Shown one piece after another: positions 28,950 through 29,924 of a stretch of 33,468 bases of DNA. Location of the stretch: contig NZ_KI519446.1 in assembly GCF_000482505.1 (NCBI RefSeq), forward strand, positions 1-33,468. The letters are read 5' to 3'. The DNA is from Leptotrichia trevisanii DSM 22070. Lineage in GTDB: Bacteria; Fusobacteriota; Fusobacteriia; Fusobacteriales; Leptotrichiaceae. Position 1 is the first letter of the stretch. The number at the start of each line of letters is the position of its first letter. The translations under genes were made by a program, and so were the position numbers. Under the pieces are notes generated by a model. That model made no database searches and had not been told where the DNA came from. It worked only from the letters and a program-made list of their open reading frames with translations.

Positions 28950-28978
28950 TTGACAATTATTAACAAATGATATATAAT
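28950..28978 (+). promoter_or_regulatory. Perfect-consensus promoter of the FadA-like adhesin genes
   Basis: TTGACA (28950-28955) and TATAAT (28973-28978) are separated by exactly 17 bases, a full sigma-70 consensus. It implies very strong transcription of the adhesin pair. Confidence 0.9.
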
Positions 28979-29022: not shown

Positions 29023-29430
29023 ATGAAAAAAGTTGGAATTTTATTTGTACTTTTGAGTGCTTTATCATTCTCAGCTGCTTCTTCAAAATCTTCAAAAACA
29101 ACAACAAACCAAACAGTAACTGGTAGATTTAATCAACTTGAAGCAGAATACGAAAGATTAGTAAACATGGAAAATCAAGAGTATAGTAAATTAAAAGCAA
29201 ATGCTGAAGCAGCATCTAACAAATTAGCAGAAAAAGAAGCTCAAAAAGCTCAAATCGAAGAAAGAATTGCTAAAATTGAAGCAGCAGCAGATTCAAAAGC
29301 ATTTAAAGCTCAATATTCTGAGTTAGCAAAACAATACAAAGCTGTAGTTAAAGCATTGGATTCAGAAATCAAATCTTTAAGTACAACTGTTGAAAACTTT
29401 GCAGCTATAGAAGCATTAAAAGGTAATTAA
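29023..29430 (+). CDS. FadA-family small adhesin, first copy
   Basis: This 135-residue exported helical protein resembles the FadA adhesins of fusobacteria, which form antiparallel helical hairpins and polymerise into surface filaments that bind host cells or other bacteria. A signal peptide spans about residues 1-19 (SFSAAS). The mature part is heptad-rich: RFNQLEAEYERLVNMENQEY, then an Ala-rich stretch with LAEKEAQKAQIEERIAKIEA, and a C-terminal helix ending in ENFAAIEALKGN, matching the family's closing pattern. AGGAGG precedes the ATG and a consensus promoter lies 45 bases upstream. A second FadA-like gene follows 80 bases downstream with no terminator between. Its role in adhesion is inferred from the family. 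Confidence 0.85.
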   Translation: MKKVGILFVLLSALSFSAASSKSSKTTTNQTVTGRFNQLEAEYERLVNMENQEYSKLKANAEAASNKLAEKEAQKAQIEERIAKIEAAADSKAFKAQYSELAKQYKAVVKALDSEIKSLSTTVENFAAIEALKGN

Positions 29431-29447
29431 TCAAAATTAAATTAACG

Positions 29448-29513
29448 AAAGGAGATACGGGAAGTCAAAAATAAAATTAAAAAGTTTTATTTTATTCTCG
29501 TGTATGAAAAATG
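29448..29513 (+). promoter_or_regulatory. Shine-Dalgarno, intervening hairpin and start codon of the second FadA-like gene
   Basis: AAAGGAG (29448-29454) is 56 bases from the ATG (29511-29513), far too distant to work in linear form. The bases between form a hairpin: 29455-29463 pairs with 29495-29503 (nine pairs, two of them G-U) and 29468-29476 with 29485-29493 (nine pairs), with an eight-base loop. When folded, only seven bases (29504-29510) separate the end of AAAGGAG from the ATG, the usual spacing. No other ribosome binding site is next to the ATG. Confidence 0.65.
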
Positions 29514-29924
29514 AAAAAGAAATTAGCAGTATTATTAGGAGTTTTAGTATTAAGTAGCGTTTCATTCGCAGCTCCAAAAGCAAAAGCGGCAGCTAAACCT
29601 GCAGCAGGTGGATCAATTGAAAGCAGCCTAAGCAATTTAGAAAACCAATTAGTAAAATTACAACAAATGGAAGATGCAAAATTCAGAGAACAAGAAGCTC
29701 AAGCAAATGCAGCAGCTCAAAGATTAAGCAACTACACAGCAATGCAAGCTAAAATTGACGAAAGAATTGCTGAAATTGAAGCAAACGTTGATACAAGCAT
29801 TTTTGGAAAAGAATTCAAAGCAAAAGTTACTGAATACAAAAACTTAAGAAACCAATTAGACAAAGAAATCGCTAAAGAACAACAAGTTCTTGACAACTTT
29901 GAATTAATTAAATCTTTAAGATAG
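29511..29924 (+). CDS. FadA-family small adhesin, second copy
   Basis: This 137-residue exported helical protein is closer to classical FadA than the first copy. A signal peptide covers about residues 1-20 (SVSFAA). After an Ala/Lys-rich linker come SSLSNLENQLVKLQQMEDAK, an EQEAQANAAAQRLSNY stretch, IDERIAEIEANVD and the end LDNFELIKSLR. The two helices and the central turn fit the FadA hairpin. It has no ordinary ribosome binding site immediately upstream; a hairpin appears to bridge a distant one (see 29448-29513). An out-of-frame ATG at 29504 gives only a short peptide. It shares the consensus promoter of the first copy and ends at a strong terminator. Confidence 0.88.
   Translation: MKKKLAVLLGVLVLSSVSFAAPKAKAAAKPAAGGSIESSLSNLENQLVKLQQMEDAKFREQEAQANAAAQRLSNYTAMQAKIDERIAEIEANVDTSIFGKEFKAKVTEYKNLRNQLDKEIAKEQQVLDNFELIKSLR

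Follow-up and report, generated by a model that had tools for sequence, protein, structure and literature searches.

To our knowledge, start sites at which a hairpin bridges a distant Shine-Dalgarno (SD) sequence and its start codon are known as isolated cases, mainly from two genes of phage T4. The hairpin in the leader of T4 gene 38 cuts a distance of 22 nt to 5 nt, and the one lying between SD and AUG at the 26-25 intercistronic junction cuts the spacing of gene 25 from 27 to 11 nt; close relatives keep this second hairpin and distant ones lack it (PMC3014915). Distant SDs also characterize a group of the E. coli polyamine modulon (oppA, rmf, fis and others), in which structure near the SD affects the approach to the AUG (PMC7177335). 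These structures are bulged, possibly include the SD itself and respond to spermidine. The leader of fadA2, the gene studied here, likewise has a distant SD, but in it a clean hairpin, not known to respond to spermidine, begins after a strong and free SD. In the split ribosome binding site of E. coli thrS, the hairpin reportedly separates the SD region from a single-stranded landing region upstream of it and, unlike that of fadA2, does not stand between SD and AUG. At the thrS site, a folded hairpin is tolerated inside the ribosome footprint (PMC3936740). The open-access literature that we searched holds no report of an SD-hairpin-AUG class in a bacterial chromosome, which is not proof of absence, and the consulted passages of a survey of RNA motifs in 50 genomes describe other Leptotrichia motifs and no such class. 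The principle is thus already known from T4 genes 38 and 25, while its recurrent use as a chromosomal class appears to be new.

The window analysed here is a stretch of 33,468 nt from Leptotrichia trevisanii DSM 22070 (contig NZ_KI519446.1, positions 1 to 33,468), to which all coordinates refer. It encodes two genes arranged head to tail, fadA1 and fadA2, with PF09403 scores of 85.8 and 92.9 bits, respectively, against a gathering score of 28.5; both therefore belong to the FadA family, in agreement with the preliminary description of the pair as FadA-like adhesins. The elements of the locus are:

28950..28978, + strand: promoter upstream of fadA1, sigma-70 consensus TTGACA-17-TATAAT (12 of 12 consensus bases)
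29023..29430, + strand: fadA1, FadA-family adhesin-like gene, 135 aa, ordinary SD (PF09403, E 2.9e-24)
29447..29454, + strand: 5'-extended SD GAAAGGAG, perfectly complementary to the 16S rRNA 3' end of the congener G002 and invariant in 10 species
29455..29463, + strand: lower stem, 5' arm AUACGGGAA (predicted fold)
29468..29478, + strand: upper stem, 5' arm (predicted fold), sequence free to vary across species
29483..29493, + strand: upper stem, 3' arm (predicted fold)
29495..29503, + strand: lower stem, 3' arm UUCUCGUGU (predicted fold)
29504..29510, + strand: single-stranded spacer of seven bases preceding the start codon; orthologues have 7-10 nt
29511..29924, + strand: fadA2, FadA-family adhesin-like gene, 137 aa, beginning at the start codon of the putative bridged site (PF09403, E 1.9e-26)

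The motif AAAGGAG (29448-29454), which the preceding G turns into the extended form GAAAGGAG, is located 56 nt from the fadA2 ATG (29511-29513), near which no other good SD was found. The hairpin begins at the very next base (29455), inserts 49 bases up to 29503 and leaves exactly seven bases (29504-29510) before the ATG. All these positions had been correctly given in the preliminary description, as had the nine pairs of the lower stem (29455-29463 with 29495-29503), whereas the upper stem, counted there as nine pairs, is predicted to contain 11; a one-base bulge occurs at 29494. The spacer includes a second ATG (29504), which is out of frame and not conserved (ATA in L010), and a TGA stop in the fadA2 frame (29505-29507) just upstream of the fadA2 ATG. 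Because no promoter-like site was detected on the + strand between fadA1 and fadA2, where no terminator was called either, fadA2 is probably co-transcribed from the fadA1 promoter, the pair forming a single operon. The Rfam 15 covariance models gave no match to the fadA2 leader with E values up to 1, and a DNA search of the L. trevisanii genome with this leader returned only the leader itself and AT-rich noise.

The minimum free energy predicted for the hairpin is -14.0 kcal/mol versus -7.2 +/- 2.0 kcal/mol for shuffled sequences (z -3.3), none of 200 shuffles being as good. In contexts of 120 to 380 nt, the pair probability of the lower stem ranges from 0.77 to 0.99, while the SD and the ATG are mostly unpaired; with the hairpin folded, the residual spacing would be 0 + 7 nt, with both SD and AUG predicted to be free. 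The fadA2 leader resembles that of T4 gene 25 in having a distant SD at an intercistronic junction and a hairpin between SD and AUG. It differs in that gene 25 is a single phage gene with 27 rather than 56 nt to bridge and no described extended-SD class, and in that the Leptotrichia plan is common to many chromosomal genes; T4 gene 38 is also a single phage gene, with a much shorter insert. Every defining feature of the two T4 sites that can be examined in sequence was found at fadA2, which would work in the same way.

The fadA2 gene was compared in relatives from the genus and the family, including 13 Leptotrichia species with L. trevisanii among them. Ten of these species, again including L. 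trevisanii, possess a long junction, in which GAAAGGAGAU is invariant (10/10). Among them, the distance between SD and ATG varies from 48 to 62 nt, while the distance from stem to ATG stays near 8 nt (7-10). The outer helix is unbroken in nine of the ten leaders, opening 0-2 nt past the SD and closing 7-10 nt before the ATG; in the tenth (L017), it is kept but split by one A-C mismatch. The preliminary description had looked to orthologous loci for both the pairing and the seven-base spacing: the pairing is indeed kept in the ten species, apart from this mismatch, while the exact spacing is not, extending from 7 to 10 nt. One leader (L018) has a weaker fold, which changes when more flanking sequence is included. 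Upper stems vary between species in sequence as well as in length. Folding z scores of the leaders range from -2.1 to -5.6, and just 4-8% of shuffles adopt the bridging geometry. Compensatory changes were observed in L016 (C-G to U-A and A-U to G-C), although covariation in the lower stem is modest, because the arms are conserved in sequence: both partners have changed in two pairs, and 49-75 of 500 shuffles reach those counts. A covariance model of the leader gave exactly one strong match (63-80 bits) per genome in the ten species and no strong match in the three other Leptotrichia species. The comparison hence strongly supports the structural bridging first proposed for this locus, since SD, stem and a spacing of 7-10 nt are kept in all ten species with a long junction.

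The three species without the hairpin (G005, G007 and G012) form one clade in an FtsZ tree. Like the other genera, they have a short junction in which the end of fadA1 contains an ordinary SD, AAAGGAG or AAAAGGAGGA lying directly before the fadA2 ATG. Relatives having the gene without the hairpin, which the preliminary description would have counted against bridging, do exist, namely three congeners and members of other genera; what they have instead is a different, short junction, which fits a lineage-specific replacement. As the short junction is shared by this clade and the other genera, it is probably ancestral, and the bridged junction a gain. The bridged junction would have replaced a short one in which the fadA2 SD sits in the last fadA1 codons, giving fadA2 a strong entry site of its own inside the fadA1-fadA2 operon, and this in most of the genus.

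The search for a class of such sites started from weak covariance-model matches at other genes displaying an SD, a hairpin, 8-10 nt and an ATG. We scanned the whole of G002, a complete Leptotrichia chromosome with predicted gene starts, using the first ATG of each open reading frame without an SD-like word nearby. A site was considered as bridged when a helix of at least 6 pairs starts at most 3 nt from the SD and leaves 7-11 nt to the ATG. AAAGGAG was found 22-78 nt upstream of 31 gene starts devoid of a near SD, and 19 of these sites are bridged, versus 4 of 115 with permuted control motifs (P 2.7e-12); shifting the window between hairpin and ATG leaves 1, 1, 5, 1 and 0 sites. Among the other 12 sites, some resemble this plan with values that deviate slightly, and a TTG start is likely for one. 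A scan beginning with the hairpins gave the same peak, with 19 ATGs at 7-11 nt versus 8 across the other 36 positions. The peak was weaker when the most stable hairpin downstream of each SD was chosen irrespective of where it ended, and also in a scan permitting internal ATGs. The named genes among the bridged ones are pheT, ftsZ, argJ, mnmG, adk, fadA2, the BREX gene brxC and those for precorrin-8X methylmutase, a formate/nitrite transporter, pyroglutamyl peptidase, a NUDIX protein and an RlpA-like protein, with no common pathway. In L. trevisanii, three bridged genes were read, namely fadA2, ftsZ (L201) and a CoA-disulfide reductase-like gene (L275). The preliminary description had missed that the genus has many sites of this kind besides that of fadA2.

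The extended SD distinguishes these sites from ordinary ones. The 16S rRNA of G002 ends in ...GGATCACCTCCTTTCT, whose CTCCTTTC is perfectly complementary to GAAAGGAG. The latter occurs in 18 of the 19 bridged sites versus 26 of 757 ordinary sites in G002, and AGAAAGGAG in 12 of the 19; bridged sites, mostly carrying GAAAGGAG, would thus pair with the extreme 3' end of the 16S rRNA. Their hairpins begin where ordinary SDs would continue, ordinary SD spacing in the genus being 5-10 nt. Of the 108 GAAAGGAG sites of G002 taken together, 21 are bridged and another 41 precede an ordinary start. The arms GCUACUU/AAGUAGC, of the type seen at ftsZ, are found at at least one further intergenic GAAAGGAG site of G002, where they enclose a loop of some 60 nt ahead of AAAAAAATG.

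The ftsZ gene is bridged in all 13 Leptotrichia species with GAAAGGAG, the arms GCUACUU...AAGUAGC or UGCUAUUU...AAGUAGCA and a nine-base spacer, the loop varying in length; these stems are only marginally more stable than shuffles. In other genera, ftsZ mostly has CAGGAGGAUAAC or similar close sites. The argJ start is bridged in five species, five others having the ordinary kind. Two other genera possess a bridged grdC, in which one pair has changed from A-U to G-C, and adk is bridged in G002 and one other genus with unrelated arms and the same geometry.

Independently of start codons, we also searched for a pattern made of the SD and the stem arms only, AAAGGAGNGTRTGATN{2,32}ATCATACA. It yielded 18 matches in 14 of 33 Leptotrichiaceae genomes, including one in L. 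trevisanii, versus 0 for the reversed pattern in the same 33 genomes. Seventeen of the 18 matches are followed 7-10 nt later by an ATG opening a reading frame of 166-497 aa, and represent about nine different genes. Extension to the phylum (98 genomes) added three matches, all in one other genus, and viral contigs contained no match to the GURUGAU/AUCAUAC pattern. About nine genes with no relation to each other, spread over five genera, carry the arms GURUGAU/AUCAUACA around unrelated loops (L267-L284), possibly through common descent, transfer or a shared binding factor.

These sequence comparisons indicate that the fadA2 start is very probably a structurally bridged, or split, ribosome binding site belonging to a Leptotrichia class. 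The predicted plan of this class is (A)GAAAGGAG - 0-3 nt - hairpin - 7-11 nt - AUG, with about twenty sites per Leptotrichia genome, a genome-wide figure derived from the single congener G002. The extreme 3' terminus of the 16S rRNA in the 30S subunit would pair with GAAAGGAG while the hairpin remains folded and looped out during formation of the SD duplex. The path from SD to ATG would then be about 7 nt at fadA2 despite the 56 nt separating them, and 7-12 nt across the class, near the ordinary 5-10 nt. Bridging at fadA2 is probably constitutive. Such recurrent use on essential genes (ftsZ, pheT and adk), if confirmed, would make what has been a curiosity a regular way of initiating translation in bacteria and provide dozens of natural sites, with many orthologues, for studying how the 30S subunit makes room for a folded insert lying between SD duplex and P site. 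Start-site prediction would be affected too, because gene finders look for an SD close to the start. More tentatively, and with doubt prevailing, Leptotrichia and some relatives could have a dedicated second class of start sites covering about 1% of genes, in which the 16S 3' terminus forms a duplex of 8-9 bp and the hairpin, held by the 30S subunit, is a structural component of initiation, perhaps along with a factor or a response common to the class.

A bridging stem is also a natural control point, and the preliminary description had envisaged a translational switch, for instance temperature- or factor-dependent, that sets the ratio of the two adhesins; temperature, polyamines, a protein or a small RNA would open or stabilize the stem and so set the fadA1:fadA2 ratio. 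Polyamine-dependent initiation at distant SDs has been reported in E. coli (PMC7177335), and the arms are conserved beyond the needs of pairing, GURUGAU/AUCAUAC recurring at unrelated genes. On the other hand, the bridged genes share no pathway, the upper stem is free to vary and the predicted pairing of the fadA2 lower stem is nearly constant, from 0.95 at 25 °C to 0.91 at 50 °C, which makes a switch rather unlikely. The temperature-dependent version finds no support, as the predicted stem hardly melts by 50 °C and its melting would lower translation. An RNA thermometer was rejected on the same predicted values, the SD being free and not sequestered.

Several bridged G002 leaders have an ATG or GTG 3 nt past the SD, and at fadA2 the frame from 29455 stays open until a TGA overlapping the fadA2 ATG, as if the SD served a short leader reading frame and the main gene was translated by coupling or reinitiation. 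This frame is not conserved, however: nine of the ten fadA2 leaders, ftsZ and several others have no start codon in the usable range, and the geometry is identical with or without one, so that we regard such a leader peptide as highly improbable. We find equally improbable that the inverted repeat is a DNA operator, an RNase site or a transcription attenuator, with the ATG served without an SD. Any inverted repeat could be a protein site and some arms do recur between genes, but loop lengths are widely different, and the arms differ by gene and yet keep a fixed place relative to the SD (0-3 nt) and to the ATG (7-11 nt). Moreover, no U-run follows the fadA2 hairpin, where no terminator was called, and genes with a close SD rarely have a hairpin (1/10). 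An S1-like protein encoded by L. trevisanii falls below its family cut-off and decides nothing here. A chance fold, conceivable in AT-rich sequence that folds easily and with ftsZ stems that are weak relative to shuffles, can be dismissed in view of a geometry conserved in 10 species, once per genome, and of a genome-wide enrichment more than tenfold over controls.

The pheT gene is bridged in G002, G003, G007 and G022 (L227, L229, L239 and L228, respectively) and ordinary in the other Leptotrichia and the remaining genera, the sisters of G007 having a different leader. The G002 and G022 proteins, although from different genera, are 100% identical over 799 aa, and the near identity includes the bridged leader, which suggests a recent horizontal transfer of this essential gene together with its start site. 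The ftsZ leader of G022 (L210) lacks any SD-like word in the 85 bases before the start and contains AAGTGGC, which resembles the 3' arm of Leptotrichia ftsZ; it is possibly decayed or different. In G002, brxC and a nearby methyltransferase-like gene (L190:4942-6141 and L190:1063-2262), the latter probably belonging to the same BREX cluster, are both bridged, with different stems.
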